Source: Aestuariibaculum sediminum (lineage in GTDB: Bacteria; Bacteroidota; Bacteroidia; Flavobacteriales; Flavobacteriaceae). Taken from it: a DNA stretch of 64,000 bases. The translations under genes were made by a program, and so were the position numbers. This document shows, one piece after another, positions 7,655-50,572 of the stretch (position 1 is its first letter; the number at the start of each line of letters is the position of its first letter). The stretch is from assembly GCF_014596945.1 (NCBI RefSeq), contig NZ_JACVXB010000001.1, forward strand, positions 928,314-992,313, read 5' to 3'. A model generated the notes under the pieces. It did not search any database and was not told where the DNA came from. It saw nothing but the letters and a program-made list of their open reading frames with translations.

Positions 7655-7679
7655 GATGCGTTTGAAATTAAAAGGTTGC
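7655..7679 (-). promoter_or_regulatory. Candidate ECF sigma promoter upstream of the lipoprotein-sigma operon
   Basis: On the minus strand: ACGCAACC (minus-35-like; AAC core as in many ECF promoters), 14 bases, GCATC (minus-10-like) followed by TTAG. The distance between GCAACC and ATC is 16 bases. The minus-10-like part lies 46 bases before the lipoprotein ATG. The same motif occurs at 8811, 9163, 49440 and 50549. The promoter assignment is inferred from motif recurrence and position. Confidence 0.65.
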
Positions 7680-7690
7680 GTGTAAAAATG

Positions 7691-7719
7691 AAAAAATCCC
7701 GATAAAATCGGGATTTTTT
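7691..7719 (-). terminator. Intrinsic terminator after recA
   Basis: AAAAAATCCCGAT, a short AA/TA loop, then ATCGGGATTTTTT: a G/C-rich stem with A/T runs at both ends. It lies four bases beyond the recA stop. Confidence 0.85.
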
Positions 7720-7723
7720 ACTG

Positions 7724-8737
7724 TTATTCATTTTCTGAAGCTGCTTTGGCGACCGCTCTAACTTTCGTTTCGAGTTCTTCCATAAGTTCAGGGTTGTCTT
7801 TTATGAGTGTTTTAACGGCATCTCGACCTTGACCAAGTTTGGTGTCTTCGTAACTAAACCAGGACCCGCTTTTCTTCACGATTTCGTTTTCTACGGCTAT
7901 ATCTAAAATTTCACCAACTTTGCTTACACCTTCGCCATACATGATATCGAATTCGGCTGTTTTAAAAGGAGGAGCGACTTTATTTTTAACCACTTTTACA
8001 CGGGTTTTATTACCAGAAACATCACCATTAGTTTCTTTAATTTGGGTAGAACGGCGAATATCTAAACGCACCGAAGCGTAGAATTTCAAGGCATTACCAC
8101 CAGTTGTGGTTTCGGGGTTACCAAACATAACACCAATTTTTTCACGTAATTGGTTAATAAATATTACCGTACAATTGGTTTTACTAATTGATGCAGTAAG
8201 TTTTCTTAATGCCTGAGACATTAAACGGGCGTGTAATCCCATTTTAGAATCTCCCATTTCACCTTCAATTTCACTTTTTGGTGTTAGGGCTGCTACCGAA
8301 TCAATAACAACGATGTCAATGGCGCCCGAGCGAATTAAATTATCGGCAATTTCTAAAGCTTGTTCACCGTTATCAGGTTGTGAAATGATTAAGTTTTCTA
8401 GATCGACACCTAATTTTTCGGCATAAAATCTATCGAAGGCATGCTCTGCATCAATAAATGCTGCTATACCACCAGCTTTTTGCGCTTCGGCAATGGCATG
8501 TAAGGTAAGCGTGGTTTTACCTGACGATTCTGGTCCGTAAATTTCAATAATACGTCCGCGAGGATATCCTCCAACACCTAAAGCAATATCTAAGCCTAAA
8601 GAACCCGACGGGATAGCATCAACATCTACAACAGCTTGATCGCTCATTTTCATTACCGTTCCTTTTCCGTAGGCCTTATCTAATTTGTCTAATGTTAGTT
8701 TTAGCGCTTTTAATTTCGCTTCTTTTTCGTTGCTCAT
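7724..8737 (-). CDS. recA: Recombinase RecA
   Basis: 337-residue ATP-dependent strand-exchange protein for homologous recombination. Walker [16 protein letters not shown] (about 69-83), the Walker B region [12 protein letters not shown], loop L1 ([20 protein letters not shown]), loop L2 ([18 protein letters not shown]) and the C-terminal domain are all present. The C-terminal tail is short and acidic. It is single-gene by context, with a terminator immediately after. An 18-base inverted repeat upstream (8764-8781) may be an operator. Confidence 0.98.
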
Positions 8738-8763
8738 TCTGTAAAGTATTATTTATCTGAAAA

Positions 8764-8781
8764 TAGTATGCTAAAATACTA
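8764..8781. promoter_or_regulatory. Inverted repeat upstream of recA
   Basis: TAGTATGCTAAAATACTA has 6-base arms TAGTAT/ATACTA around a 6-base centre, 27 bases before the recA ATG. Its position fits a repressor site or an element overlapping the recA promoter. It does not match the Escherichia coli or Bacillus LexA box, and I cannot name the binding protein. Confidence 0.35.
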
Positions 8782-8810
8782 TAAGTTTTATCATTGCACA
8801 ATTTTATCAC

Positions 8811-8835
8811 GCAACCTTTTGTTAAAAAATATATC
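8811..8835 (+). promoter_or_regulatory. Candidate ECF sigma promoter upstream of a broken lipoprotein gene
   Basis: ACGCAACCTTTT, then after a 16-base gap from GCAACC the bases ATCTTA. The minus-10-like part is ATATC here in place of GCATC. It is 37 bases upstream of the lipoprotein-like reading frame at 8872 and runs divergently from recA. The spacing is identical to that at 7655-7679. Confidence 0.5.
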
Positions 8836-8871
8836 TTATAAATACCAGTTGAATGTTTGTTATAATTATTA

Positions 8872-9143
8872 ATGATGAGATATAAAATTTGGATGTTTTT
8901 TTGGTGTCTGTGTTTATTTCCTGTACAACCAGTGAATAAGCTCGTAATATGGTTGGTATTGAAAAAAATGTAAGACACCCCTAAAGTCCCCTTAAGGGGA
9001 CAGTTCTCTTAGGTGAATTTCAAATTGCCGATTTAAAAATTCAGTTCGAAACGAAAAATCTAACCCTCCCAGTTTATTGTAGGCACGATAAAATTTACCC
9101 TGAGCAGTTTGATGTTTTTAATGTTGAAATATTAGCCGATTAA
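8872..9143 (+). pseudogene. Decayed small lipoprotein gene
   Basis: From the ATG at 8872 the frame reads MMRYKIWMFF and then leaves the expected path in a run of seven T (8895-8901); the ATG frame itself closes at 8971-8973 after 33 codons. Adding one base in the T run yields LVSVFISCTTSE, a complete lipobox, followed by a stop. Beyond a 16-base palindrome (8986-9001) another open stretch, GEFQIADLKIQFETKNLTLP and onwards, ends at the TAA at 9141-9143. I read these as the start and end of one lipoprotein gene broken by a frameshift and by repeat insertion or decay. An alternative is that the 33-codon frame is a real small protein. Confidence 0.5.
8978..9001. repeat. Short palindromic repeat inside the decayed lipoprotein gene
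   Basis: CCCCTAAA followed by the perfect 16-base palindrome GTCCCCTTAAGGGGAC. From general experience this string recurs in intergenic regions of flavobacterial genomes; only one copy is in this window. It lies between the two recognisable halves of the broken gene. Confidence 0.5.
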
Positions 9144-9162
9144 ATTATTTTAAAAAAACAAC

Positions 9163-9187
9163 GCAACCTTTTAATGTTATTTGCATC
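9163..9187 (+). promoter_or_regulatory. Candidate ECF sigma promoter of a short transcript
   Basis: ACGCAACC, 14 bases, GCATC: an exact match in both boxes and in spacing to the site upstream of the ECF sigma operon. The unit downstream contains no sizeable gene, only a 15-codon frame and two hairpins ending at 9302. Confidence 0.6.
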
Positions 9188-9192
9188 AAGGT

Positions 9193-9302
9193 AATATACA
9201 TGGGAATTTTTTGCTATGAAAATGATCTCATTAAACATTTTAAGTTCGACTAACTCAAAATGATTAAAAAAGCGCCCGATTCTGCACATGGGCGCTTTTT
9301 TT
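9193..9302 (+). ncRNA. Candidate ECF-dependent small RNA, about 110 nt
   Basis: The start is estimated as 6 bases after the minus-10-like GCATC. The segment holds one hairpin at 9236-9262 (stem CATTTTAAGTT/AACTCAAAATG, one mismatch, loop CGACT) followed four bases later by a strong terminator hairpin (9266-9302). A 15-codon frame, MKMISLNILSSTNSK, occupies 9216-9263 and could be a leader peptide, but it has no signal or repeated codon that suggests attenuation. The next gene, trhO, has its own promoter after the terminator. No known RNA family is recognised. Confidence 0.45.
9266..9302 (+). terminator. Strong intrinsic terminator of the short unit upstream of trhO
   Basis: Twelve-base stem AAAAAAGCGCCC/GGGCGCTTTTTT around a 12-base loop, continuing into T. 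There is no annotated gene before it on the plus strand, which is the main reason to look for a short transcript here. Confidence 0.85.
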
Positions 9303-9308
9303 ATGGAG

Positions 9309-9339
9309 TTGGGCATTGTATTTAAATTGTTTACCTTTG
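9309..9339 (+). promoter_or_regulatory. Housekeeping-type promoter of trhO
   Basis: TTG (9309-9311), 20 bases, then TACCTTTG (9332-9339), matching the Bacteroidota primary sigma consensus TTG-N17-23-TAnnTTTG. It predicts a leader of about 40 bases before the trhO ATG at 9384. Confidence 0.6.
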
Positions 9340-9383
9340 CGCCACAAAAAATAAAATCTTTAACCTTAAAAAATTAGTATAGC

Positions 9384-10454
9384 ATGCAACTGTACAATAA
9401 ATTAAGTGCTAAAGAGCGAGCAGAATTAATCGATAAAGCAGGAAAAAATCGATTAACGCTTTCTTTTTATCAGTACGCCAAAATTGAAAATCCACAGGAA
9501 TTTAGAGACCAATTATTTATTGTCTGGAACGCCTTAGATGTTTTAGGTAGAATATATGTCGCTCACGAAGGTATTAACGGCCAATTATCACTTCCGGCCG
9601 ATCGTTTCAACGAATTTAAAGCACATTTAGACACCATTGAGTTTTTAAAAGATATTCGATTAAATATTGCTGTTGAGCAAGACAATAAATCGTTCTTAAA
9701 ATTGAAAGTTAAGGTGCGTGAAAAAATTGTTGCCGACGGATTAAACGATGAGACTTTCGATGTAACCAATAAAGGTGTTCATTTAAAGGCGGAAGACTTT
9801 AACCGTTTTATTGAAGATGAGAATACCGTACTGGTAGACATGCGAAACCATTACGAAAGTGAAATAGGTCATTTTAAAAATGCCGTGACACCAGATGTTG
9901 ATACCTTCAGAGAATCTTTAGATATTATTGAAGACGATTTAAAAGATCACAAAGAAGACAAAAACCTGGTTATGTATTGTACTGGTGGTATTCGTTGCGA
10001 AAAGGCCAGTGCTTATTTTAAGCATAAAGGCTTTAAAAATGTGTATCAGCTTGAAGGTGGTATTATAGAATATACCCGTCAGGTTAAAGAACAAAACCTA
10101 GAGAATAAATTTTTAGGTCAGAATTTTGTGTTCGATGAGCGTCGTGCCGAACGTATTAGCGACGATATTATTGCTAACTGTCACCAATGTGGCGAACCGT
10201 TCGATGTGCATACCAATTGTGCTAACGATGCGTGTCATTTGTTGTTTATCCAATGTCCTAAATGTCAGGAAGAAATGGAAAATTGTTGCTCTACAGCTTG
10301 TATGGAGATTAATCGTTTGCCATATGAAGAGCAAAAGGCTTTACGCAAAGGTCAAGGAAATAGTAACGATATTTTTAAGAAAGGACGGGCCGATCACTTA
10401 CCCTACAAAAAGGATTTAAGAAACATATTCGAGCATTTTAAAAAAGAAGACTAG
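9384..10454 (+). CDS. trhO: tRNA uridine(34) hydroxylase, oxygen-dependent (TrhO)
   Basis: 356 residues. An N-terminal acylphosphatase-like domain (about 20-115) precedes a rhodanese domain (about 140-240) with the active-site loop CTGGIRCEKA, catalytic C199. The C-terminal part carries a dense cysteine cluster (CHQCG, CPKCQ, CC; about 263-306) likely to bind zinc. Family members use oxygen to make 5-hydroxyuridine at the tRNA wobble position. The next gene, 7 bases on, encodes the oxygen-independent counterpart TrhP, so both routes to the same modification are in one operon. Confidence 0.93.
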   Translation: MQLYNKLSAKERAELIDKAGKNRLTLSFYQYAKIENPQEFRDQLFIVWNALDVLGRIYVAHEGINGQLSLPADRFNEFKAHLDTIEFLKDIRLNIAVEQDNKSFLKLKVKVREKIVADGLNDETFDVTNKGVHLKAEDFNRFIEDENTVLVDMRNHYESEIGHFKNAVTPDVDTFRESLDIIEDDLKDHKEDKNLVMYCTGGIRCEKASAYFKHKGFKNVYQLEGGIIEYTRQVKEQNLENKFLGQNFVFDERRAERISDDIIANCHQCGEPFDVHTNCANDACHLLFIQCPKCQEEMENCCSTACMEINRLPYEEQKALRKGQGNSNDIFKKGRADHLPYKKDLRNIFEHFKKED

Positions 10455-10461
10455 TTTTATC

Positions 10462-11706
10462 ATGCAAAAGATTGAATTAATGGCACCTGCAGGGAATTTC
10501 GAATCCTTGCAGGCAGCTTTAGATAATGGTGCAGATTCTGTGTATTTCGGTGTGGAACAGCTTAACATGCGCGCCCGCGCATCCATCAATTTTACATTAG
10601 ACGATTTGCCAGAAATAGCACAGCGCTGTCAGGAAAAAAATGTTAGAACGTATTTAACTTTAAATACCATTATTTACGATCACGACTTGTCGATTGTAAA
10701 AACCTTAATCCAAAAGGCTAAAGATTCTAATATTACGGCAGTCATAGCTATGGATCAAGCGGTTATTATGGCGGCTCGCGACATTGGTATGGAGGTGCAT
10801 ATTTCAACTCAAATTAATATCACCAATATTGAAACGGTTAAGTTTTATGCCATGTTTGCCGATACGATGGTGTTAAGTCGTGAGTTGAGTTTACGCCAGG
10901 TTAAAAAAATTACCGATCTAATAGAAAAGGATCAAATAAAAGGCCCTTCAGGGAATTTAGTTGAAATTGAAATTTTCGGTCATGGTGCTTTATGTATGGC
11001 GGTTTCAGGAAAATGTTATTTGAGTTTACATTCGCATAATTCTTCTGCAAACAGAGGGGCGTGTAAACAAAACTGCCGAAAAAAATATACAGTTATCGAT
11101 CAGGAATCTGGTTTCGAAATAGAGCTGGATAACGAATACATGATGTCGCCAAAAGATTTATGTACCATCGATATTTTAGATCAGGTTGCCGATGCAGGTA
11201 TAAAAGTATTGAAAATTGAAGGACGCGGCCGTGCACCAGAATATGTAGCAAAGGTTATTAAATGTTATCGTCAGGCAATTGATAGCTTAGAGCAAGGCAG
11301 TTTCGATAAAGGAAAAGTGGTGACCTGGATGCAAGAGTTGGAAAAAGTATATAATCGCGGATTCTGGAATGGTTATTACTTAGGGCAAAAATTAGGTGAG
11401 TGGAGTAAAGGCACAGGATCTCATGCAACCCAAAAGAAGGTTTACATAGGCAAAGGCTCTCATTATTTCCCAAAAGCTCAAATTGGTGAGTTTAAAATTG
11501 AAGCTTTCGATGTATCTGTTGGCGATACCATTTTAGTTACTGGACCAACCACGGGAGCAAAAGAAGTTGAAGTGGCTCAAATGCTAGTAAACGACGAACC
11601 ATTAAACAAAGCTTCAAAAGGCGATTCAGTTACCATTCCGTTAGGTTTCAGAATTCGACCTTCAGATAAATTATATAAAATTGTTGAAAATAAAGTAGAG
11701 GCATAA
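10462..11706 (+). CDS. trhP: U32-family tRNA hydroxylation protein TrhP
   Basis: 414 residues of the peptidase U32/YegQ family. The N-terminus MQKIELMAPAGNFESLQAAL is the family signature. The Fe-S cysteine set C-x6-C-x15-C-x3-C is intact (CMAVSGKC ... GACKQNC, about residues 174-203), and the C-terminal beta domain is present. In Escherichia coli YegQ/TrhP makes 5-hydroxyuridine 34 with prephenate as the donor. Other U32 members act in different reactions, but the adjacent trhO supports the tRNA assignment. The stop overlaps the ferredoxin ATG by one base. Confidence 0.88.
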   Translation: MQKIELMAPAGNFESLQAALDNGADSVYFGVEQLNMRARASINFTLDDLPEIAQRCQEKNVRTYLTLNTIIYDHDLSIVKTLIQKAKDSNITAVIAMDQAVIMAARDIGMEVHISTQINITNIETVKFYAMFADTMVLSRELSLRQVKKITDLIEKDQIKGPSGNLVEIEIFGHGALCMAVSGKCYLSLHSHNSSANRGACKQNCRKKYTVIDQESGFEIELDNEYMMSPKDLCTIDILDQVADAGIKVLKIEGRGRAPEYVAKVIKCYRQAIDSLEQGSFDKGKVVTWMQELEKVYNRGFWNGYYLGQKLGEWSKGTGSHATQKKVYIGKGSHYFPKAQIGEFKIEAFDVSVGDTILVTGPTTGAKEVEVAQMLVNDEPLNKASKGDSVTIPLGFRIRPSDKLYKIVENKVEA

Positions 11707-11936
11707 TGGTTGTTGTTACCTTACAACGCAACAAATGTATTGGTTGTAATTATTGTGTGGAGCTGGCGCCTAATCAGTTTCAAATGTCTAAAAAGGATGG
11801 GAAATCGGTGCTGCTAAAAAGTGTCGATAAAAAAGGTTTTCATACTATAAAATCTAACGATTATACCATATTAGAAGACTGCGAACATGCAGCAAAAGCC
11901 TGTCCGGTAAAAATAATTGATGTAAAATCTGTATAA
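11706..11936 (+). CDS. [4Fe-4S] ferredoxin linked to trhP
   Basis: 76 residues. C11-x2-C14-x2-C17 and a distant C66-P form a single-cluster ferredoxin set; C59 is an additional cysteine. The rest is short and charged. The ATG overlaps the trhP stop by one base, which implies coupled translation and a stoichiometric link to TrhP. I infer that it serves as electron carrier or cluster donor to the Fe-S protein TrhP. A role for a ferredoxin (YfhL) in this modification has been proposed in Escherichia coli, though this one is not obviously an orthologue. Confidence 0.88.
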   Translation: MVVVTLQRNKCIGCNYCVELAPNQFQMSKKDGKSVLLKSVDKKGFHTIKSNDYTILEDCEHAAKACPVKIIDVKSV

Positions 11937-12043
11937 GTTTGTGGCGTATTTCATCTAATTGTTAATAAGTGTTTTCCTGTGTGTTCGATAACGCAAATTG
12001 AGTTTTATATATTTGGCTAGTACCCCTAATTTAATATTAAAAT

Positions 12044-12163
12044 ATGCTAACAAAAGATTTTAGTATTGGCTTATTAATCATGCAATTAATAGGATTTATG
12101 GCGATAGCCTTTATAGTGTTTTTACTATACCGGCTCTATAAATTTTTAAAGAAAAACACATAA
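12044..12163 (+). CDS. Small single-pass membrane protein, 39 residues
   Basis: The ATG at 12044 opens a 39-codon frame with one hydrophobic segment (GLLIMQLIGFMAIAFIVFLL, about 9-28) and a basic C-terminal tail (YRLYKFLKKNT), a typical inside-positive bitopic protein. A perfect minus-7 element TATATTTG lies at 12008-12015, and an intrinsic terminator follows 13 bases after the stop, so it forms its own transcription unit. No family is recognised. It falls within the 409-base gap between the ferredoxin and ricT; the remaining parts of the gap hold only promoters. Confidence 0.6.
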   Translation: MLTKDFSIGLLIMQLIGFMAIAFIVFLLYRLYKFLKKNT

Positions 12164-12176
12164 TACAAATAACAAG

Positions 12177-12206
12177 AAAACCCATTGCAATAGTAGTGGG
12201 TTTTTT
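12177..12206 (+). terminator. Intrinsic terminator after the small membrane protein
   Basis: AAAACCCA, a 14-base loop, then TGGGTTTTTT. It separates the small gene from ricT. Confidence 0.7.
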
Positions 12207-12345
12207 AGTTCTAAAGCGTTGTAATATTAAAAATAGCAAGGGTTCTTGCATCCAACTAAAAAATACTATCTTTACCTTTTAGAAATACACTTTAACATTC
12301 ATTCGCAATAGCTTAATTATTAGCGAATTCAATATATAGAAATTT

Positions 12346-13695
12346 ATGGCTTGTAACAGTTGTTCAACTGGTAAAGATGGTCAACCAAAAGGATGTAAAA
12401 ATAATGGCACTTGTGGTACCGATAGTTGTAATAAACTAACGGTATTCGATTGGTTGTCAAATATGTCTCTTCCAGGTGGTGAGAAACCGTTTGATTGGGT
12501 TGAGGTTCGATTTAAAAACGGTAGAAAAGATTATTATAAAAACACCGAAAATTTAACGCTAAGTATTGGCGATGTTGTAGCCACTCAGGCTCAGGCAGGG
12601 CACGATATTGGCATGGTTACCCTTACCGGAGAATTGGTGCGTATTCAAATGAAACGCAAAAATATTTCTGAAACTCCCGACGAAACTTTAAAAATATATC
12701 GCAAAGCGAATCAAAAGGATATCGATGTTTGGCAAGCCGCCAGAGATCGCGAAGAACCTATGAAGGTAAAAGCAAGGCAATTTGCTATAGACCTTAAGTT
12801 GGAAATGAAAATATCTGATATCGAATTTCAAGGCGATGCCAGTAAAGCCACCTTCTATTATACAGCCGAAGAACGTGTTGACTTTCGTGAGTTAATTAAA
12901 GTTTTTGCCCGCGAATTTCGTACACGTATTGAAATGAAACAGGTAGGATTTCGTCAGGAAGCTGCCAGACTTGGTGGCATTGGTTCTTGCGGTCGCGAGT
13001 TGTGTTGTTCAACTTGGTTAACCGATTTCCGTTCGGTAAGCACATCGGCGGCACGTTACCAACAGTTATCATTAAATCCGCAAAAATTGGCGGGTCAATG
13101 TGGTAAATTGAAATGCTGTTTAAATTATGAATTGGATACGTATCTCGATGCGTTAAAGGATTTTCCAAAGTCTGAAATAAAATTACAAACCGAAAAAGGC
13201 GTAGCCATTTGTCAGAAAACCGATATTTTTAAAGGGTTTATGTGGTATGCTTATGAAGGTGAATGGATTAATTGGCATAAAATTACCACCGAGCAAGCTA
13301 ACGAAATAATTGCCTTAAATAAGGAAAATAAAAAAATTGCGAGTCTTGAGGAGTATGCAGCCGATGTCATTTCGGATACTAAATCGGAGTTTGAAAACGT
13401 TGTAGGTCAGGATAGTTTAACGCGTTTCGATAGTCCAAAACCAAATAAAAAACGTAAAAATAGTAGAAGCAGAAATAAAACCCGCAATACTAAAAGTAAA
13501 GGGAAAGCACCTGCTAAAGGTACGTCTGGTAATAATGACAACTCTGGACCAAAAAAGCAAGGGCCTAAAAATGCTGGAGCTAAAGGTTCGAATTCTAAAA
13601 ATACTGGAGGTAATAAAAATAAATCCAGAAATAATAATAGATCAAAAAATAACAGAAAACCTCAAAATCAAAAGAATAAAGATGCCACAAAGTAA
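12346..13695 (+). CDS. ricT: PSP1/RicT-family Fe-S regulatory protein with basic tail
   Basis: 449 residues. The N-terminus is cysteine-rich (C3, C6, C17, C23, C28), followed by the PSP1 domain (about 50-290) with its signatures GGIGSCGRELCCSTWL and LAGQCGKLKCCLNYE. In Bacillus, RicT (YaaT) acts with RicA and RicF to support RNA processing by RNase Y; neither partner is in this window. Residues about 365-449 are a Lys/Asn/Gly/Arg-rich low-complexity tail, probably RNA-binding. The end overlaps the gldH start by 14 bases. A TACCTTTT minus-7-like element lies at 12273-12280. Confidence 0.88.
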   Translation: MACNSCSTGKDGQPKGCKNNGTCGTDSCNKLTVFDWLSNMSLPGGEKPFDWVEVRFKNGRKDYYKNTENLTLSIGDVVATQAQAGHDIGMVTLTGELVRIQMKRKNISETPDETLKIYRKANQKDIDVWQAARDREEPMKVKARQFAIDLKLEMKISDIEFQGDASKATFYYTAEERVDFRELIKVFAREFRTRIEMKQVGFRQEAARLGGIGSCGRELCCSTWLTDFRSVSTSAARYQQLSLNPQKLAGQCGKLKCCLNYELDTYLDALKDFPKSEIKLQTEKGVAICQKTDIFKGFMWYAYEGEWINWHKITTEQANEIIALNKENKKIASLEEYAADVISDTKSEFENVVGQDSLTRFDSPKPNKKRKNSRSRNKTRNTKSKGKAPAKGTSGNNDNSGPKKQGPKNAGAKGSNSKNTGGNKNKSRNNNRSKNNRKPQNQKNKDATK

Positions 13696-14179
13696 TGTCA
13701 TGTTATTTTTAGTCATGCTCGTTGTAACCGTAGTGTCTTGTGATTCAAATCGTGTTTTCGACCAGTATGAGTCTATTCCAAATAGATGGCATAAAGATTC
13801 TATTGTTAGTTTTGATTTCACACCGCCAGACTCTACAAATGCCTATAATTTATTTGTAAATCTTAGAAATACAAATGCTTATAAATACAATAATTTATTT
13901 TTAATTGTTGAAATGAATTTTCCTCATGGGAAAACGGTTACAGATACTTTAGAGTACCGTATGGCTGACCCTTCTGGAAAGCTTTTAGGAACTGGAATAA
14001 CCGATATAAAGGAAAATAAACTGTGGTATAAAGAAGGCGTGGTTTTCAACGAAGCAGGAACATATCAGGTCAATATACAACAGGCTATGCGCGAAAATGG
14101 CAAGGTTAATGGTGTGGTAGAACTTGAAGGCATAACCGATGTTGGTTTTCGTATAGAACATATAAAAAGTATGAATTAA
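13682..14179 (+). CDS. gldH: Gliding motility lipoprotein GldH
   Basis: 165 residues with a lipoprotein signal MLFLVMLVVTVVSC followed by the GldH-like start CDSNRVFDQYESIPNRWHKD. GldH is one of the envelope lipoproteins needed for flavobacterial gliding, and the ricT-gldH-PBP order is familiar in this family. The start could be 13682 (MPQSNVMLF) or the in-frame ATG at 13700; the latter gives a signal peptide with no positive charge, so I chose 13682. The frame is open further upstream but only inside ricT. Confidence 0.92.
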   Translation: MPQSNVMLFLVMLVVTVVSCDSNRVFDQYESIPNRWHKDSIVSFDFTPPDSTNAYNLFVNLRNTNAYKYNNLFLIVEMNFPHGKTVTDTLEYRMADPSGKLLGTGITDIKENKLWYKEGVVFNEAGTYQVNIQQAMRENGKVNGVVELEGITDVGFRIEHIKSMN

Positions 14180-14244
14180 ACAAGGTGTTTAAAATCCTCA
14201 AATAAGGCACTTTGATAAAACCCTATTTATAATTTAAAAGACAC

Positions 14245-26399: not shown

Positions 26400-27389
26400 T
26401 TAGTTTATCATTAGTTTTTTATTTATCGCATCTGCAATATTAATTACCTTATCTGGAGCCTTAAATCTATAGCCTATAAAAATATTAAAAAACGGGATGT
26501 TATCTACTACTTCTGAAACACTATCAGCATTATGGTTTAGGTTTAAATAGTTGTAGTGTAGACCGCAATATAATTTGTTTATATCGTAAGTAGCTGAGCC
26601 ACTAAAACTTAATTCGGTTAGTAAAGTGGTTAGGTATTCTTCTCCTTTTGATTTGGAACGGTTTAATCCTATTCCAGCAGCTAGACCAACAGAAAACAGC
26701 AGGTTTTTTGAAGGGACAAAGTTGTAAAAATATGAGGGAGCAAATGCCATATCGAACGAGTAATAACTAGAATTAACATCTGGGTTATCACCATTATTTT
26801 TAATATGAAGTTTTGTGTAGTAATATGTTAGGTTTGGAATAAAACTTCCTGTGCTTTTTAATTGTTTTTCATCTTGAGATGAAATAGCTCTAAATGAGAA
26901 ATTTTCATTGAATATATAGGATGTAGAGCCACCAATTTTAAAATTTTTTATTTGTGGAAAATATGAATTAATCTCGTTGTTTTTAACATTGAATCCTTTT
27001 TGACCAAATAAATCAAAGGTTTGCATGAGGTGTTTTCCAAAAAAAGTTCGGAAGTTAAGATTGAATAATTTGGAGTTTTTATTGTCTTTATTTTCACCTA
27101 GAAAATTAGGAGCAAATGCATATGACGCCGTAAGGCCTCGAAAAGCAACCGAAGCCCCTATTCGATCTTGTTTATTGGGTTCTAAATCAAAAGCTAAATT
27201 GGAATTTCTATCTTTTATACGCAGGGTGTTCGAGGTATTTATATAATACGCACGAACAGTAACAACGTTGGGGTAATCTTTTTTGTAATTGGATGTCCTA
27301 ACGGTATTTGAATCTAAATGGTTTTGCGCTAAAAGTGGAATAGTGTTTATAACTATTAAAGTTAATCTAAACAATTCCCTTAAACCCAT
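26400..27389 (-). CDS. DUF4421-type outer-membrane-associated protein
   Basis: 329 residues with a signal peptide ending IPLLAQ (about residue 21). The remainder is strand-rich with alternating hydrophobic residues (SYYFDMAFAPSYFYNF type strands), typical of Bacteroidota outer-membrane barrels. I match it to the DUF4421 group by the RAYYINTSNTLRIKD and GLTASYAFAP segments. Its start overlaps the end of hemF by ten bases. The role is unknown. Confidence 0.7.
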   Translation of the reverse strand: MGLRELFRLTLIVINTIPLLAQNHLDSNTVRTSNYKKDYPNVVTVRAYYINTSNTLRIKDRNSNLAFDLEPNKQDRIGASVAFRGLTASYAFAPNFLGENKDNKNSKLFNLNFRTFFGKHLMQTFDLFGQKGFNVKNNEINSYFPQIKNFKIGGSTSYIFNENFSFRAISSQDEKQLKSTGSFIPNLTYYYTKLHIKNNGDNPDVNSSYYSFDMAFAPSYFYNFVPSKNLLFSVGLAAGIGLNRSKSKGEEYLTTLLTELSFSGSATYDINKLYCGLHYNYLNLNHNADSVSEVVDNIPFFNIFIGYRFKAPDKVINIADAINKKLMIN

Positions 27390-40582: not shown

Positions 40583-40592
40583 ATTTAGCGAC

Positions 40593-43531: not shown

Positions 43532-43559
43532 CATTGGTTTTAATATATTTTAATTAAAA

Positions 43560-44427: not shown

Positions 44428-44470
44428 ACCAACTAAACTAAATAAGACATTAAACTAATTATTAATGAAT
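44398..44470. repeat. 73-base direct repeat, copy 1
   Basis: Identical base for base to 45281-45353. It contains the terminator hairpin, the 3' untranslated part and the last five codons with stop of the paralogue at 44455 (FINN and stop). Confidence 0.92.
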
Positions 44471-45051
44471 TTTGTGTATTCTTTGTTATTATAGATGAAA
44501 ACTAATTTGTAGTCACCTGATTTTAATTTGTATGCTTTTTCAATAGATTGAATTCCTTTTATAGATTCAGAATGAATTAACTCATATTCATTGTCTTGGT
44601 TGGCGTAAATATGAATTTTAAAGGCTTCTCCGTTAGGCGCTAATTTTGTGATATAAAGCACACTGTTTTCTTGTCTTACAAAAGGCTTAAAAGTTGTTTT
44701 TTCTGCTGTTTTGTGAAAAGAAACAGAGTCGAAAGCAATCGTAAAAGGAAGTGTAGTGAATTCTAAGCTTTTTTCAATTTCTAAAATGTAATCACCTTGT
44801 GGTAATTCTGAGAAATCAAAAGCTTTTCTATAAGTCCCAGATACAACAATATCTTCTTTATAAAGAATAACCCCAAAACGATCTTTAATCGTTAAAACAT
44901 TACCTGGTTTTACATCATTTAATGTGATTGCTGTTTTAGAAAGTTCACCATTTACTGTTGAAAATGTTCTTTCTGTTGCGTTACCTAATAATGATGCCGA
45001 GAGAGCTATTAATAATACGCTATACTTTAAAGTGCTAATAATCTTTTTCAT
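44455..45051 (-). CDS. Secreted protein of unknown function, tandem paralogue 2
   Basis: 198 residues from the ATG at 45051 (MKKIISTLKYSVLLIALSAS), with a signal peptide ending at about residue 24. The mature part matches paralogue 1 motif by motif and ends in KEYTKFINN. The open frame extends to 45075, but the ATG at 45051 gives a better signal peptide. It is transcribed towards paralogue 1 with its own terminator. The role is unknown. Confidence 0.8.
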   Translation of the reverse strand: MKKIISTLKYSVLLIALSASLLGNATERTFSTVNGELSKTAITLNDVKPGNVLTIKDRFGVILYKEDIVVSGTYRKAFDFSELPQGDYILEIEKSLEFTTLPFTIAFDSVSFHKTAEKTTFKPFVRQENSVLYITKLAPNGEAFKIHIYANQDNEYELIHSESIKGIQSIEKAYKLKSGDYKLVFIYNNKEYTKFINN

Positions 45052-45280
45052 AACTATGTGTTTTACAATGTTCAACGGTACAAATGTATGTTGGATTTTA
45101 ACATGTTAAAACATCTGATTTGATGTATTTATATGCTATTTTAACTAAATGTATGGTTTTTTAATGCGGTATAGTGAAAGTTGTTTACATAAAGGTTAAT
45201 ATAGTATATGTTTAGAATTTATGTATGCATAATTATCTAATAAAGAAAAAAGATGGGAGGGTTACGGGTAAAATAGTGCA

Positions 45281-45353
45281 AAAAAAAAGTGAGCCACCAC
45301 AGCTCACTTTACCAACTAAACTAAATAAGACATTAAACTAATTATTAATGAAT
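45281..45353. repeat. 73-base direct repeat, copy 2
   Basis: Identical to 44398-44470 including the terminator stem. It is not preceded on the minus strand by an intact gene, only by a short remnant. Confidence 0.92.
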
Positions 45354-45403
45354 ATTGTAAACTCTACAATCGAGTATTTTATAATGTGTTTCTCTAAAAG
45401 AGA
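45338..45403 (-). pseudogene. 3' remnant of a third tandem paralogue
   Basis: Upstream (minus strand) of the duplicated stop codon, about 21 codons read SLLEKHIIKYSIVEFTIFIN, resembling the ends of the two intact paralogues (for example KEYTKFINN against VEFTIFINN). A promoter-region resemblance lies further up: TTTATATGCTAT at about 45542 matches the string found upstream of paralogue 2 at about 45128. I infer that the coding body was deleted. The 594-base gap from 45076 to 45669 otherwise holds only promoter regions. Confidence 0.5.
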
Positions 45404-45669
45404 TTAACAGTTTTTATTTCTAAGATTCTTAAATCAATCAAGCTTAAAAACTTCATGATTTTTAGATCGCGTTGTTATCATAAATCAACAATACAAAGAT
45501 ATGGCAGATTAAGTGTTAAGAAAACAACTAATTTACCGCATTTATATGCTATATTAACCGTTAAGAATTTGTTAACCTAAAGTTAAGTTAAAATAATACA
45601 TAATCGAGGTAATTAATGATAGTTTTGCAATTTAATATGTTGTAAATTTGTTATAAACCCTATTTTGTT

Positions 45670-46542
45670 ATGATTAATAAGAAACCCACATTTAGAAAAC
45701 TTACACCAAGTTTCGGTAGTTCGATATTAGTTAAGCAACATGTCGACACCATTGATAAGTCTGCAGCATATTGGCATTTTCATCCCGAATTAGAGCTTAT
45801 ATATATTAATAAGGGACAAGGGAAAACACATATAGGAAACCATTTATCTTACTTTAATAATAGTCAGTTAATTTTAATAGGTTCAAATTTACCACATAAT
45901 GGGTTTACCGACAGGTTAACTGCAAATGGTACAGAAACAACCATACAATTTAAATCAAATTTTTTAGGCGACGATTTTCTTAATGTTCCAGAAATGGCAA
46001 ATATTGTGTCGTTGTTTGAGCGCGCAAAAAGAGGCATTAGGTTTAGAGTTGAAACGAAACAGAAAATCGGACCAAAAATTGAAAAGCTAAAAAAATACGA
46101 CGGGTTAAAACGTATTTTTAAGTTCCTAGAAATATTAGATTATTTGGCCACGACAGACGATTATAATATTTTAAATGCTGATGGATTTTCATTTGAAACT
46201 GAGGCTCAGGATAGTTCAAAAGTTGATGTTATTTATAAGTATGTGAATAAAAATTTTCAAAGACACATAAGTTTAGATGAAATAGCCGATGAAGTTAGTA
46301 TGACCGTTCCTGCGTTTTGTAGATATTTTAAAAAGGCTACAGGAAAAACATTTACTCAGTTAGTTAACGAGTATCGCGTTGTACATGCTACCAAATTACT
46401 TAATGAAAGCCAGATGAGTATAGCAGATATATGCTATGAATGCGGATTTAATAATTTCTCACACTTTAATAAGCAGTTTAATGAAATTGTTGGAAAAAGT
46501 GCATCGAACTATAGAAAGGAAATTAAAATGATAATTGGTTAA
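45670..46542 (+). CDS. AraC-family transcriptional regulator with cupin-like sensor
   Basis: 290 residues. The N-terminal domain is cupin-like (YWHFHPELELIYINKGQGKT, about 32-51; LIGSNLPHNGF), as in sugar-responsive AraC proteins. Two helix-turn-helix motifs lie in the C-terminus (ISLDEIADEVSMTVPAFCRY and SIADICYECGFNNFSHFNKQ). TAAATTTG (45643-45650) is its likely minus-7 element. It is divergent from the secreted paralogues, and a regulatory link is possible but unproven. Confidence 0.92.
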   Translation: MINKKPTFRKLTPSFGSSILVKQHVDTIDKSAAYWHFHPELELIYINKGQGKTHIGNHLSYFNNSQLILIGSNLPHNGFTDRLTANGTETTIQFKSNFLGDDFLNVPEMANIVSLFERAKRGIRFRVETKQKIGPKIEKLKKYDGLKRIFKFLEILDYLATTDDYNILNADGFSFETEAQDSSKVDVIYKYVNKNFQRHISLDEIADEVSMTVPAFCRYFKKATGKTFTQLVNEYRVVHATKLLNESQMSIADICYECGFNNFSHFNKQFNEIVGKSASNYRKEIKMIIG

Positions 46543-46547
46543 TCATA

Positions 46548-47201
46548 TTATTTTAAGCCATTCCATTCATTATAAAACTGATCTAAATACTGAACCATGA
46601 AATCGTGGCGTTCGGCAGCTATTTTTTTGGCGGTTTTAGAGTGCATTCGGTCTTTTAATAAAAGAAGTTTTTCATAAAAATGATTAATGCTAGGTGCTGT
46701 TGAAGCTTTGTATTCAGCTTTACTCATGTTTAAGTTAGGTTTTATTTCAGGGTCGTAAAGCCCTCGATTTTTAAAACCGCCATAATTAAAACAACGAGCA
46801 ATACCAATGGCTCCTATAGCATCGAGTCGGTCGGCATCCTGAACTACATTTAACTCAGCCGATTTAAATTTTTGTGCTTCGTTGCCTCCTTTAAATGATA
46901 TGTTTTCAATTATTTTAACCACATGTTCAATAATTGAAGAGTCTACATTTTGTTTAAATAGAAATTCTCGAGCCATTTTTGGTCCAACTGTTTCATCGCC
47001 ATCATGAAATTTACTATCAGCAATATCGTGTAATAGTGCACCAAGCTGCACAATGAAAAGATTGACAGGTTCGCTTTTTGCAATGAGTACTGCATTATTG
47101 TAAACTCTCAAAGTGTGAAACCAATCGTGCCCACCTTCGGCATTTTTCAGGGTGTCTTTTACAAAGGTTTTAGTTTTCTCAATGATTGGATCAATACTCA
47201 T
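46548..47201 (-). CDS. HD-domain phosphohydrolase
   Basis: 217 residues. Metal ligands of the HD superfamily appear in order: GHDWFHTLRVYNNAVLIA (first H), LLHDIADSKFHDGDE (HD), then a distal D in VVQDADRLDAIGAIGIAR. The layout is that of YedJ-like enzymes, which act on nucleotides. The substrate is not known. It follows a terminator for the desaturase gene. Confidence 0.9.
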   Translation of the reverse strand: MSIDPIIEKTKTFVKDTLKNAEGGHDWFHTLRVYNNAVLIAKSEPVNLFIVQLGALLHDIADSKFHDGDETVGPKMAREFLFKQNVDSSIIEHVVKIIENISFKGGNEAQKFKSAELNVVQDADRLDAIGAIGIARCFNYGGFKNRGLYDPEIKPNLNMSKAEYKASTAPSINHFYEKLLLLKDRMHSKTAKKIAAERHDFMVQYLDQFYNEWNGLK

Positions 47202-47213
47202 ATTATAAAAATA

Positions 47214-47243
47214 AAAATTCCTTTCGATATGGAAAGGAATTTT
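47214..47243 (-). terminator. Intrinsic terminator after the desaturase gene
   Basis: Twelve-base stem AAAATTCCTTTC/GAAAGGAATTTT with loop GATATG; on the minus strand a T-rich tail follows. Confidence 0.85.
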
Positions 47244-47259
47244 AAGTATACAAGATAAA

Positions 47260-48261
47260 TTATTTTACTGTTGCCGGCTCTACCCATTTAAATTGGTATG
47301 AGTTTTCAGGAACTTTCATGCGGTCGGATAAACGGTACATGCGTTCAGGAAGTTTCATTAAATAATCTCTGGCTTTCTCAGCTTCGTCGGTTAGGTTTGT
47401 AATTTTATCAATTTCCCAACGTTCAATAAGTTTTTGAAGAATATCAACGTAATCTCTAGATGTGTAAACACCAATGCGTTGCGCTGTATTCGAAAATTCT
47501 TCAAATGCCGTACTTATTTTACCTCCAGACTCGCGTAAAAAATGAGCAGGCATGGTTATTTTTTGTTTCATCATATAATGAAATGCCATCATCATTTGGC
47601 TAGGGTCAACTTTAAAAATACGTTCCACAAACTCCGAATAGGCATGGTGGTGTCGCATTTCATCTCCTGAAATTATCTGACACATTTTAGCTAAACGTTT
47701 ATTACCTTTCTTTTTAGCAATTTTAGCTACACGATTATGTGAAACATAAGTTGCTAATTCCTGAAAACTGGTATAAACAAAGTTTTTGTAAGGGTCGCGA
47801 TCGGTGCCAATATCAAAACCATCGGCAATAAGATATTGTGTGGTTTTTTCAATTTCTTTCATGTTTACACGACCTGAAAGGTATAAGTATTTATTCAGGA
47901 CATCGCCGTGTCTGTTTTCTTCTGCAGTCCATTGTTTTACCCATTTCGACCAGCCATTTCCGCCATTTTCTACTTGATCAACACCTTCTACATCCATAAG
48001 CCAGGATTCGTAGGTTGGAAGTGCTTCTTCGGTAATCATATCACCGACTAATACTACCCAGAAATCGTATGGTAATTCTTTAGCTAATTCTCTTATTTCT
48101 CTAACCTCTTCAAAAAAGGTCTCATCTGTAGTTTCTGAATTTGGTAAAAAATCTGTGGGTTGCCATATGCTTTCAATAGGAATTAAATATTTTTCCATTA
48201 AAGCGTCAACGTCTTTTTCCAAAAACTGCATCACTTCTAATCTCACATTCTTTAACGACAT
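47260..48261 (-). CDS. Acyl-ACP desaturase (soluble di-iron)
   Basis: 333 residues. The two di-iron motifs are WTAEENRHGDVLNKYLYLSG (E-x2-H, about 150-169) and SGDEMRHHHAYSEFV (E-x2-H, about 218-232). This is the plant stearoyl-ACP desaturase fold, which introduces a cis double bond in acyl-ACP with oxygen and reduced ferredoxin. It lies 11 bases after plsC, which suggests joint control of membrane lipid composition. Confidence 0.93.
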   Translation of the reverse strand: MSLKNVRLEVMQFLEKDVDALMEKYLIPIESIWQPTDFLPNSETTDETFFEEVREIRELAKELPYDFWVVLVGDMITEEALPTYESWLMDVEGVDQVENGGNGWSKWVKQWTAEENRHGDVLNKYLYLSGRVNMKEIEKTTQYLIADGFDIGTDRDPYKNFVYTSFQELATYVSHNRVAKIAKKKGNKRLAKMCQIISGDEMRHHHAYSEFVERIFKVDPSQMMMAFHYMMKQKITMPAHFLRESGGKISTAFEEFSNTAQRIGVYTSRDYVDILQKLIERWEIDKITNLTDEAEKARDYLMKLPERMYRLSDRMKVPENSYQFKWVEPATVK

Positions 48262-48272
48262 TTTACTATGTT

Positions 48273-49010
48273 TTATGAGTGAATACTGTTTGTTATAGTA
48301 GCTTCTACACTATTTATAAGCTCTTCTTTATTTGCAAAGGTACTAACTTTTAAAGGCTTATGAATAGTAAATGTGATATGATTACCTAAGCCCATCGGGA
48401 ATTTTCCATATTTCAGCATTTTCCATGAATTATTTATGGTAACAGGAACCACATACGCAGAGGGTATTTTCTTAAATAACATTTCTAAACCTTTAGTTTG
48501 AAATGGTTTAGGTTTCCCGGTTTTGCTTCGGGTACCTTCAGGGAAAATAACTGCTGCACGCTTATTTTTTTCAATGTACTCACCGAATTTCATTAGCACA
48601 GGAAACGATTGCCTTGGATTTTTACGGTCTATTAAGGCTGCGCCTCCATGACGTAAGTTGTAAGATACACTAGGAATCCCCTTTCCTAACTCAATTTTAC
48701 TAATAAATTTAGGGTGATGTTTACGCATATACCACGTAAGTGGATAAATATCATGTAAACTTTGATGGTTCGCTACAAAAATAATAGGTGTATTTTTTGG
48801 AATGTCATGTTCATTAATACAGGAAAAACGTGTGCCTAAAACATGACCACAAAGCATTAAACAATATTGTAAAGCGTCAACACTTAATTTATGTGCTTTA
48901 TAACCAAACAGATTAAAACAAATCCATTGAATGGGATGAAAAATAACCAATGTTAGGAAAAAACACAGGTAATAAATGGCGGTTAGCGGATATGATAATA
49001 ATTTTAACAT
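48273..49010 (-). CDS. plsC: 1-acyl-sn-glycerol-3-phosphate acyltransferase
   Basis: 245 residues. The catalytic H-x4-D motif is VANHQSLHDIYPLT and the glycerolphosphate-binding motif is IFPEGTRSKTGKPKPF. A hydrophobic N-terminal segment anchors it in the inner membrane. It adds the second acyl chain to make phosphatidic acid. It forms an operon with the desaturase. Confidence 0.92.
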   Translation of the reverse strand: MLKLLSYPLTAIYYLCFFLTLVIFHPIQWICFNLFGYKAHKLSVDALQYCLMLCGHVLGTRFSCINEHDIPKNTPIIFVANHQSLHDIYPLTWYMRKHHPKFISKIELGKGIPSVSYNLRHGGAALIDRKNPRQSFPVLMKFGEYIEKNKRAAVIFPEGTRSKTGKPKPFQTKGLEMLFKKIPSAYVVPVTINNSWKMLKYGKFPMGLGNHITFTIHKPLKVSTFANKEELINSVEATITNSIHS

Positions 49011-49036
49011 GCCGCAAAAATAAGTAAAAACTACGC

Positions 49037-49420
49037 TTAATAAACAGCGATACAGGTGTTATTTTCACAGGCCACCGATTTAGGTGGAGTCACCAGCATA
49101 CAATCTGAAATAATACCCCATTTACTGTTGTAATTATCTTCCATCTGATTGTAGGTTTTAACCAATGCTTCAAGTGCTTCAATATCGATCGATGAAGCGT
49201 ATACTAAATAGCTTTTAGGTCCGCCGCAGGCTTTGCTTCCAAAAGCAATGTACTTGCATGTTGTATTTTCATTACACACCGAACTTGAAACTAATGTTTC
49301 TATTTTATTTCGTAATTCTGTTAATTCCTTTTGGTCTTCTTCTTGAGATGTTACCATATCGTCATCGCATTGCGTAGACATAAGAAATAGTGGAATTATT
49401 AAAAGAAAGAAAGGTTTCAT
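49037..49420 (-). CDS. Cysteine-rich small lipoprotein under a candidate ECF promoter
   Basis: 127 residues from the ATG at 49420. Lipoprotein signal MKPFFLLIIPLFLMSTQC with D at +2. The mature part begins with a helical, acidic segment (EEDQKELTELRNKIETLV), then six cysteines in the pattern SVCNENTTCKYIAFGSKACG, SDCMLV and ACENNTC, probably paired as disulphides. CGGPKSYLVYAS is a recurrent motif of such domains, though I cannot name the family. A frame upstream to 49531 exists, but the ECF-like promoter at 49440-49464 lies inside it, so the short form is correct. Confidence 0.78.
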   Translation of the reverse strand: MKPFFLLIIPLFLMSTQCDDDMVTSQEEDQKELTELRNKIETLVSSSVCNENTTCKYIAFGSKACGGPKSYLVYASSIDIEALEALVKTYNQMEDNYNSKWGIISDCMLVTPPKSVACENNTCIAVY

Positions 49421-49439
49421 AACACGCGTTTTTTTGGTA

Positions 49440-49464
49440 GATGCACCAAGTGAGCAAAGGTTGC
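49440..49464 (-). promoter_or_regulatory. Candidate ECF sigma promoter upstream of a cysteine-rich lipoprotein
   Basis: GCAACC, 14 bases, GCATC on the minus strand, exact in both boxes and spacing relative to the sigma operon site. The minus-10-like part is 20 bases before the ATG at 49420. Confidence 0.6.
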
Positions 49465-49475
49465 GCAATAAAACC

Positions 49476-49500
49476 AAAAAAGCCACGATAATTCGTGGCT
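49476..49500 (-). terminator. Intrinsic terminator after the bacilliredoxin gene
   Basis: AGCCACGA/TCGTGGCT stem with loop TAAT, then a T run on the minus strand. It lies between the bacilliredoxin gene and the next ECF-type promoter. Confidence 0.85.
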
Positions 49501-49524
49501 TAGTTATAACTAATTTACTCTTTG

Positions 49525-49935
49525 TTAGCAATGCTCGTTATAAGCATCAACCAGGTTTTCTGCAATTAATTCAGCAGGACGACCTTCAATATGATGACGC
49601 TCTAACATATGTACTAATTCTCCATCTTTAAAAAGAGCCATACTAGGTGAGCTGGGTGGAAACGGAACCATATGTTGCCTTGCTTGTGCAACCGCTTCTT
49701 TATCTACACCTGCAAAAACAGTAACTATATGATCTGGTTTTTTTGCATTTTCTAAACTTAAACGAGCACCTGGACGTGCATTGGCTGCAGCACAACCACA
49801 AACCGAATTTACCACAATAAGTGTAGTTCCTTCTTTAGCTAGGGCAGCATCTACAGCTTCGGGTGTATGTAATTCTTCAAAACCAACTTTCGTTAAATCT
49901 TCACGCATTGGTTTCACTAATTCTGCTGGATACAT
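49525..49935 (-). CDS. BrxA/BrxB-type bacilliredoxin
   Basis: 136 residues. The C46-G-C48 motif lies in VNSVCGCAAANARPGA, the family mark. In bacillithiol-using bacteria these proteins remove bacillithiol from proteins under oxidative stress; many Bacteroidota encode homologues. The N-terminal MYPAELVKPMREDLTKVGFE is conserved. No bacillithiol synthesis gene is in the window. Confidence 0.93.
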   Translation of the reverse strand: MYPAELVKPMREDLTKVGFEELHTPEAVDAALAKEGTTLIVVNSVCGCAAANARPGARLSLENAKKPDHIVTVFAGVDKEAVAQARQHMVPFPPSSPSMALFKDGELVHMLERHHIEGRPAELIAENLVDAYNEHC

Positions 49936-50065
49936 ATTTTAATGTTTTATTATTATAAATTTTAATTATGCAAAGGTAATCAAAAATCGTGCAATAATGG
50001 TTTTGGCGTTACCTTATAACACTTTAGGTGTCATAAGGTCAGGCTGTCTGCTATATCTTTTCTTC

Positions 50066-50087
50066 GTGCTGAAATAAATTCAGCATC
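50066..50087. repeat. Palindromic intergenic repeat, copy B
   Basis: GTGCTGAA then 6 bases then TTCAGCATC, followed by CTCA, matching the copy at 4065-4087 in inverted form over its core. It lies between the bacilliredoxin gene and a lipoprotein gene. Confidence 0.6.
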
Positions 50088-50132
50088 TCATAAAAGGATG
50101 TCGCTTCCATCCTTAACGCGAAAATCACGATA

Positions 50133-50522
50133 CTATTTGGGCTGAAGGTTAAATTCTAGAACCTTGCTAATAACATGACATCCATCGGTTTCAATGGTAA
50201 TTGGGTCGCTGATGAATGTTTTATATTTAGCAGAAGTTACAGTAATTACATATGTGCCTGGTCGCTCACCAGCGCCAGAAAATGAGTCGAAACCAGTAAA
50301 TTGTTTAAAAATTTCCTTATAATTTCCCTCAGTAACTTTTACTTCAACATTGTTTGTTGCATTGTTTGTGATTTTGTTCTGGGTTTCGGCATCTATTAGC
50401 GTAATATTCAAACCATAAACAAAAATGTCTGTGCAAATTATACCTTCATCAGAGTCATTATTTTTACTGCAGGAAAAACAAATTAAAAAAGCCAGTACAG
50501 TAACAAAATATGTCGGTGTCAT
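50133..50522 (-). CDS. Small lipoprotein with an Ig/transthyretin-like domain
   Basis: 129 residues. Lipoprotein signal MTPTYFVTVLAFLICFSC, followed by CSKNNDSDEGI. The mature part is a small beta-sandwich (VYGLNITLIDAETQNKI, then RPGTYVITVTSAKYKTF), similar to carboxypeptidase-regulatory or transthyretin-like domains. Two cysteines (ICTDI and GCHVI) may pair. It is preceded by the fifth ECF-type promoter-like motif. No family is firmly recognised. Confidence 0.72.
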   Translation of the reverse strand: MTPTYFVTVLAFLICFSCSKNNDSDEGIICTDIFVYGLNITLIDAETQNKITNNATNNVEVKVTEGNYKEIFKQFTGFDSFSGAGERPGTYVITVTSAKYKTFISDPITIETDGCHVISKVLEFNLQPK

Positions 50523-50548
50523 AATTAGAAATTTGTATTTACTTATAA

Positions 50549-50572
50549 GATGGAAAAAAAGGAAAAGGTTGC
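50549..50572 (-). promoter_or_regulatory. Candidate ECF sigma promoter with 15-base spacing
   Basis: ACGCAACCTTTT on the minus strand, then 15 bases from GCAACC to ATCTTAT. It is one base shorter than the other four sites and has CCATC in place of GCATC. It lies 27 bases before the lipoprotein ATG. Confidence 0.5.

Follow-up and report, generated by a model that had tools for sequence, protein, structure and literature searches.

A candidate autoregulated ECF promoter motif and its predicted envelope-stress regulon in the family Flavobacteriaceae

Introduction

A stretch of 64,000 nucleotides from the genome of Aestuariibaculum sediminum (here called the window) contains five closely similar elements, one of them upstream of an operon that includes a gene for an extracytoplasmic function (ECF) sigma factor. 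What do these elements do, and which genes do they serve? The original prediction, made from the letters of the window, was that they are ECF promoters marking a small-lipoprotein regulon, and that the sigma operon is probably autoregulated. The best overall explanation, and one that comparative analysis makes highly probable, is that the motif is an autoregulated envelope-stress ECF promoter that marks the regulon of this sigma factor. The range of genes and transcripts served appears to be wider than lipoproteins.

Definition of the motif

All five sites were found at the positions and on the strands originally given for them (Table 1). Likewise, the distance from GCAACC to ATC is 16 bases in four sites and 15 in the fifth (50549-50572), and three of the five have an exact GCATC. 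When aligned by eye, the sites have CGCAACCTTT in common, followed by 11 free bases, or 10 in the case of site 5, and the GCATC box. Exact GCAACC-N(12-15)-GCATC occurs three times in the window, compared with 0.03 times on average, and never more than once, in dinucleotide shuffles. The looser pattern GCAACC-N(13-15)-ATC has two matches (the 15-base site and one at 27145) against 0.83 expected, and a genome-wide search with it, of the kind originally suggested, proved too weak to be usable alone, with 54 matches against 38 reversed controls; the signal therefore resides in the longer form. Plain CGCAACCTTT was also rejected as a definition: in the organism's own genome its 11 matches equal the 11 of the reversed control, so the -10 part is needed.

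With the full motif, CGCAACCTTT-N11-GCATC, and up to two mismatches, there are 12 matches in the same genome against one reversed control. Four of the window sites are among the 12; site 5, with its 15-base spacing, cannot count in a scan with an 11-base spacer. Three further copies precede small genes (Table 1), and the other five matches, each with two mismatches, comprise four inside coding sequence (L155-L158) and one that is intergenic (L153, C11:150634). The motif has the features of an ECF promoter, namely two boxes, an AAC core at -35, a fixed spacer, and a location 5' of the sigma factor's own operon.

Conservation among relatives

A sample chosen by sigma similarity only, the best 80 of the sigma matches listed, covers Seonamhaeicola, Algibacter, Flavivirga, Gelidibacter, Winogradskyella, Lacinutrix, Aquimarina, Leeuwenhoekiella, and other genera; by its sigma kin, the window's genome belongs to the Flavobacteriaceae near Algibacter, Seonamhaeicola, and Flavivirga. 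Comparison upstream of the orthologous sigma operons, one of the checks originally proposed, identified a copy with at most two mismatches in 74 of 79 loci and none with the reversed pattern. This agreement strongly supports, at the level of sequence comparison, both the ECF promoter and its autoregulation. Furthermore, a divergent copy lies beyond recA in 55 of 76 loci of this sample at the same threshold (control 0). Where the sigma factor is at least 57% identical, window included, a copy within three mismatches is present at 31 of 33 loci, a count that has no reversed control and comes from a sample sharing some genomes with the first. Of the five sites, relatives retain 1, 3, and 4 (7655, 9163, and 49440).

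Wider samples delimit the distribution of the motif. Spacers of 9-13 bases gave 48 matches in 21 genomes among 60 relatives, against two in reversed controls, and an exact copy is found in 128 of 299 genomes sampled evenly across the family (reversed control 0). Only five genomes in a phylum sample of 296 have an exact copy, all of them among its 30 family members, and the exact motif with an 11-base spacer is found in none of the 266 phylum genomes outside the family. These counts are given without probability because related genomes are not independent; a better argument is that the spacer bases vary between genomes while the boxes are constant. One genome from another family of the order (G039; loci L050, L072, and L149) has two divergent copies with one extra spacer base (12 bases), one directly 5' of a gene for a related ECF sigma factor, the other 5' of a gene for a secreted-looking protein. 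In this genome the system apparently extends past the family with a shifted spacer.

The sigma operon and a candidate anti-sigma factor

The operon reads, head to tail, lipoprotein, sigma factor, and a protein of 478 amino acids (aa). The sigma factor matches the two families that define regions 2 and 4 (PF04542, E 2.1e-12; PF08281, E 1.8e-17) and no other sigma domains, which places it in the ECF group, and the NCBIfam model sigma70-ECF matches over its cut-off. The lipoprotein is unnamed by any family library searched. It does not group with NigD, as none of its 27 orthologs matches the NigD model in Pfam (E up to 1), and it has no significant match among solved structures, the best Foldseek E value being 0.017.

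The 478-aa protein has a layout that would connect the cytosol with the outer membrane. Its AlphaFold model has helices at residues 6-34 and 45-67, a stretch from 71 to 214 with a predicted local distance difference test (pLDDT) score below 50, and a barrel that is mostly above 90; the two predicted N-terminal helices fall in a conserved stretch. The best Foldseek match of the barrel is OmpA (E = 1.3e-8), and 29 of 34 orthologs match OMP_b-brl (E up to 0.1). In the window the gene begins 3 bases 3' of the sigma gene, and a same-strand match to it is found downstream of the sigma gene in all 80 loci chosen by sigma similarity. By layout and operon, the protein is likely to be a member of the dual-membrane-spanning type of anti-sigma factor.

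Table 1. Motif sites, genes, and transcripts in the window, with further copies of the motif in the same genome.
Feature	Position	Strand	Description
Motif site 1	7655..7680	minus	Exact match to CGCAACCTTT-N11-GCATC; putative ECF promoter for autoregulation of the sigma operon
Motif site 2	8810..8835	plus	Two mismatches, both in the -10 part (ATATC)
Motif site 3	9162..9187	plus	Exact; proposed promoter of the recA-linked short transcript
Motif site 4	49440..49465	minus	Exact; lipoprotein start 19 bases downstream
Motif site 5	50549..50573	minus	15-base spacer, CCATC; not conserved in relatives
Own-genome copy	C15:85280 (L017)		Exact; precedes a 28-aa open reading frame with one hydrophobic span
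Own-genome copy	C11:698732 (L010)		One mismatch; precedes a 147-aa lipoprotein gene
Own-genome copy	C21:13114 (L159)		Two mismatches; precedes a 170-aa lipoprotein gene
Candidate anti-sigma factor (Dma/Reo-like), 478 aa	5183..6619	minus	N-terminal helices, transmembrane helix 45-67, tether 71-214, OmpA-like barrel
ECF sigma factor	6623..7165	minus	TTG start; Sigma70_r2 and r4_2
First operon gene, 140-aa lipoprotein	7187..7609	minus	No Pfam family; predicted beta-sandwich in which two additional cysteines are invariant
Decayed unit after site 2	8836..9161	plus	Coding fragments in more than one frame, including lipoprotein-signal-like ones
Short transcript lacking an open reading frame	9188..9302	plus	UUGCUAU and ACUAACUC blocks; intrinsic terminator ~9267-9302
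127-aa cysteine-rich lipoprotein (...IAFGSKACGG...)	49037..49420	minus	ATG start at 49420, after site 4
129-aa lipoprotein downstream of site 5	50133..50522	minus	Homolog in 1 other of 60 genomes

Genes downstream of the motif

The sequence downstream of 40 further unpaired sites, among the matches listed from the scan of 299 family genomes, was read by eye. All except one point toward a gene or unit that starts downstream (39/40). Eleven are at the recA-sigma locus, where they precede five microprotein units ending in KADGG, four units that lack an open reading frame (ORF), and two sigma-operon lipoproteins. The other 29 comprise 15 before lipoprotein genes (by eye), 10 before an ORF for a small membrane microprotein, three before genes for other proteins that are secreted or in the outer membrane, and L282, which falls in coding sequence. 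Lipoprotein genes as judged by eye thus follow 17 of the 40 sites in all, two being the sigma operon's own. The expectation of a small-lipoprotein regulon is borne out to this extent, and was too narrow, in that microproteins and ORF-less transcripts are included as well. The downstream end of the motif is often 17-54 bases from the start codon.

The membrane microproteins form a family with ORFs of 28-36 aa and one hydrophobic span (consensus by eye ...VNLILLVFSVNKKTDP). For the 28-aa form, the proportion of nonsynonymous differences (pN) is 0.15 and that of synonymous differences (pS) is 0.70 among five sequences, with pN below pS in all 10 pairs, a pattern of purifying selection. Among relatives of the lipoprotein after site 4, matched by eye, the motif is likewise found within the genus (L051, L052, and L055) and more widely (L269, L277, and L298). 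As had been noted, the three intact lipoproteins of the window have cysteines in the mature part, beyond that of the lipobox. In three genomes (L284, L286, and L079), an exact motif is located 5' of lipoprotein genes that appear SusD-like by eye; perhaps a nutrient-uptake lipoprotein has come under the stress promoter in these cases.

The recA-linked unit

Between recA and trhO there is a divergent motif, a short unit, an intrinsic terminator, and then an apparent trhO promoter of the TAnnTTTG type, the consensus of housekeeping promoters (PMC9723704). Among 79 such recA-linked units, GCTATGAA is present in 55, and in 51 of these it is 23-26 bases after the motif. A microprotein of 25-30 aa, typically ending in CKADGG, is encoded by 32 units after removal of five near-duplicates; M1, C25, and G29 are invariant in the alignment, and D28 and G30 nearly so. 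It is evidently under purifying selection, with pN of 0.25 against pS of 0.56 for the 30-aa form and pN below pS in 296 of 300 pairs. Eight of 60 genomes have this microprotein, in a single copy and always at this locus. Neither microprotein, nor the RNA, has a match over the cut-off in Pfam, NCBIfam, or Rfam.

To judge from its sequence, the unit at 9188-9302 in the window is the ORF-less form of this microprotein unit. On a tree built from sigma and RecA, the microprotein is present in 32 of 73 units with at least eight changes, gain and loss being indistinguishable, and the window belongs to a starred set in which 17 of 19 units are without the microprotein. Among the ORF-less units of the window's clade, two have ATC and one ATA in place of the ATG start, and a further case of ATC (L301) is off the tree. 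The window unit has the properties of a regulatory small RNA, with its own promoter and terminator and conserved sequence in place of a conserved ORF; only the terminator covaries. This predicted RNA, which ends in a terminator, is the 'short hairpin unit' originally described after 9163. The further hairpins of a single fold (z -4.0) were not confirmed, RNAalifold of the ORF-less units giving the terminator only. After the microprotein stop codon there is also a hairpin in which pairing reaches 85% of cells, and no more than 51% once the alignment is slid. It shows no two-sided pair change, and shuffles reach its score, so that the data agree with this hairpin but do not prove it; the terminator does covary (10 of 12 pairs). 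The RNA model R1 recognizes the recA locus at E <1e-10 in seven of 60 genomes, all training rows or near-duplicates; its matches near 1e-3 elsewhere look like chance, and most microprotein-bearing and deep-branching forms go unrecognized.

Does the ORF-less RNA itself do anything? With moderate confidence, the recA-linked RNA of the window's clade can be said to function with no need for an ORF. The main competing account, in which this transcript is the remnant of a dying microprotein gene and has no RNA function, has a substantial though minority chance of being right. It would fit the repeated changes on the tree and the genomes, several in number, that keep fragments only, and it would fit the incomplete retention of ACTA[AG]CTC, which is rare outside the window's clade and found in only 16 of 41 ORF-less units overall (13 of 17 in the clade, and none of the 32 microprotein units), and of TTGCT[AG]T, found in 30 of 41. 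However, TTGCT[AG]T is kept in all 17 ORF-less units of the clade, even where the start is ATC or ATA, the promoter is still near-perfect, and covariation of the terminator persists (5 of 11 pairs).

Two further observations concern these units. A deep-branching form (L126, L128, L129, L131, L132, L279, and L293) has a different core that could fold into a long hairpin around CTATGAA; in most of these units a GGTGGTCA-like stretch is followed by CTATGAAAAAG or a similar sequence and next by TGG. A common reading frame seen by eye in L126, L128, L131, and L132 was dropped, since a stop codon interrupts it in L126. In addition, the genome's own 28-aa microprotein gene (L017) has in its 5' leader a block, ACTAACTC(A), that is also present in the recA-linked RNAs of the window's clade and is a possible shared binding site or pairing region.

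Proposed mechanism and alternative explanations

In the proposed mechanism, the ECF sigma factor encoded at 6623-7165 would read CGCAACCTTT-N11-GCATC, and the 478-aa protein, spanning from the cytosol to the outer membrane, would hold it as an anti-sigma factor. Disturbance of the outer membrane, the presumed signal, would release the sigma factor. Once released, it would transcribe its own operon (lipoprotein, sigma factor, and anti-sigma factor), small lipoproteins and the 28-aa single-span microprotein, as well as the recA-linked transcript, which carries the 25-30-aa microprotein in many relatives and would be an ORF-less RNA in the window's clade; the 5' ends of these transcripts are those predicted from the motif. 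A more specific proposal, which is offered tentatively as possible rather than probable, is that the core conserved output of this Flavobacteriaceae envelope-stress response consists of miniature products. These would be the 30-aa CKADGG microprotein on a recA-linked dual-function RNA, whose RNA role survives the ORF in the window's clade, and the 28-aa single-span membrane microprotein. A single type of ECF promoter, controlled by a sensor that spans both membranes, would produce the two of them along with small lipoproteins.

Several observations count against an ECF promoter that marks the regulon of this sigma factor. Five of the 79 sigma loci have no copy within two mismatches (L197, L204, L209, L214, and L229), three of them in Aquimarina, and in the sample of closer sigma factors L122 and L125 have none even within three. 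Fourteen of 34 genomes with an ortholog have no copy with exact boxes, most of them keeping degenerate copies at the right place. Sites 2 (8811) and 5 (50549) of the window are not conserved, and the window's own 478-aa protein matches no Pfam family. By a strict lipobox rule, lipoproteins follow eight of the 40 unpaired sites, compared with 26 of 317 background ORFs (p = 0.02), so the lipoprotein share is modest when a mechanical rule is applied.

It is unlikely that the motif is read by one or more other ECF sigma factors of the genome, the one at 6623-7165 being merely a target. The genome does have two further ECF matches, 31 and 39% identical, and ECF regulons can overlap, as stated for Flavobacterium psychrophilum (PMC9723704). 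However, the motif accompanies the ortholog of this sigma factor and is hardly found without it: a copy with exact boxes is present in 20 of 34 genomes with an ortholog (at least 57% identity) and in one of 26 without (Fisher p = 6e-6, uncorrected for kinship), the lone exception being G039. Furthermore, none of eight loci of more distant sigma factors (42-54% identity) has the motif within three mismatches, and autoregulation is common among ECF operons.

An operator for an ordinary transcription factor is very improbable. The presence of a motif cannot by itself separate an operator from a promoter, but this one is asymmetric, with two short boxes at a fixed distance and the AAC core upstream, it is oriented to the gene, and it often lies close 5' of the start; no TAnnTTTG housekeeping -7 box was noticed beside the sites, although no systematic scan was made. 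It is extremely unlikely that the recurrence is only inherited linkage to recA, one old stretch being counted repeatedly with no regulon: many copies are pairs ~1.15 kb apart around recA, and the 11 'unpaired' sites at the recA-sigma locus add to these, but this account is contradicted by the 29 sites that lie at neither recA nor the sigma operon, all but one of which are 5' of a gene (28/29), and the 11 spacer bases vary around constant boxes.

Relation to known systems

An autoregulated envelope-stress ECF promoter would have its closest counterpart in the EcfO-Reo system of Bacteroides and Phocaeicola (compare Das1-Dma1 in B. thetaiotaomicron), where an ECF sigma gene is likewise followed by a protein that runs from the cytosol through the inner membrane and a disordered tether to an outer-membrane barrel. 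Reo 'spans all five bacterial compartments' and its sigma factor EcfO controls NigD surface lipoproteins (PMC13114119, PMC9308784), Dma2 has the layout of the 478-aa protein (PMC13088901), and systems with such a layout govern lipoproteins under envelope stress (PMC13114119, PMC9308784, PMC13088901). Lipoproteins in the regulon and envelope stress as the likely signal are further points in common. In contrast to EcfO-Reo, the first gene of the operon in the window encodes a conserved 140-aa lipoprotein with no match in Pfam, not even to NigD; a recA-linked RNA and microproteins of two families are among the predicted targets, and a sharp promoter motif is defined. The EcfO-Reo type pairs an ECF21 sigma factor with a dual-membrane-spanning anti-sigma factor, and likely kinship to it is suggested by layout and operon.

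Among flavobacterial promoters, SM6 of F. psychrophilum, obtained from mapped 5' ends, is of the same ECF-type class but has a CGT box, and no GCAACC motif is described in the accessible sections of that report (PMC9723704). The start map gives one ECF motif, and other start sites under ECF control may await discovery (PMC9723704). The YceA rhodanese of F. psychrophilum, by name a relative of trhO, is listed under the SM6 ECF promoter (PMC9723704); trhO in the window (9384-10454, plus strand) seems to carry a housekeeping -7 box, and regulation in the trhO neighborhood may differ between genera.

Parallels for the recA-linked RNA are the sigma-E small RNAs MicA, RybB, and MicL of enterobacteria, which are short terminated transcripts from an envelope-stress ECF promoter. 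The recA-linked unit would likewise give a short terminated transcript, and differs in that it encodes a microprotein in many relatives. Within the Bacteroidota, the small RNA BatR of B. thetaiotaomicron acts on cell-surface genes, but it has a conserved -7 promoter box and, in the portions of the report available, no described link to an ECF sigma motif (PMC10861873). The motif and its products are undescribed in the accessible parts of the open-licence full-text literature on flavobacterial ECF promoters, ECF21 promoters, ECF-controlled small or dual-function RNAs, and flavobacterial microproteins.

Other features of the window

Site 2 leads into decayed fragments only, in agreement with the broken lipoprotein gene originally described after 8811, and its unit is by all appearances local and decayed; the gap between recA and trhO is 647 bp in the window compared with 289 bp in four relatives of the genus. 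Site 5 was rejected as a conserved member of the regulon, since the single homolog of its downstream lipoprotein gene, among 60 genomes, lacks the motif. Just 3' of that gene is a Flavo-1 RNA (RF01705; 50033-50124, minus strand), the sole Rfam match in the window. Flavo-1 was considered as a mark of the regulon and rejected, as the genome contains 13 matches to it, 11 of which exceed the cut-off, and it is thus a dispersed element. Also near site 5, at 51472-54906 (plus strand), a second gene of the sigma-70 family, with a match to region 2 only, is followed by a gene for a 960-aa protein with a weak TonB C-terminal match; these are possibly another pair of sigma factor and membrane protein.

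Perspectives

Gut Bacteroidales are known to have pairs of sigma and anti-sigma factors spanning both membranes, and no promoter motif is given for them in the accessible parts of those reports. For a whole environmental family, the motif described here supplies a ready-made regulon that has been tested by comparison, and through it the proposed autoregulation and signal become directly testable. It also brings to light a recA-linked RNA and two widespread families of microproteins for which Pfam, NCBIfam, and Rfam have no entry.

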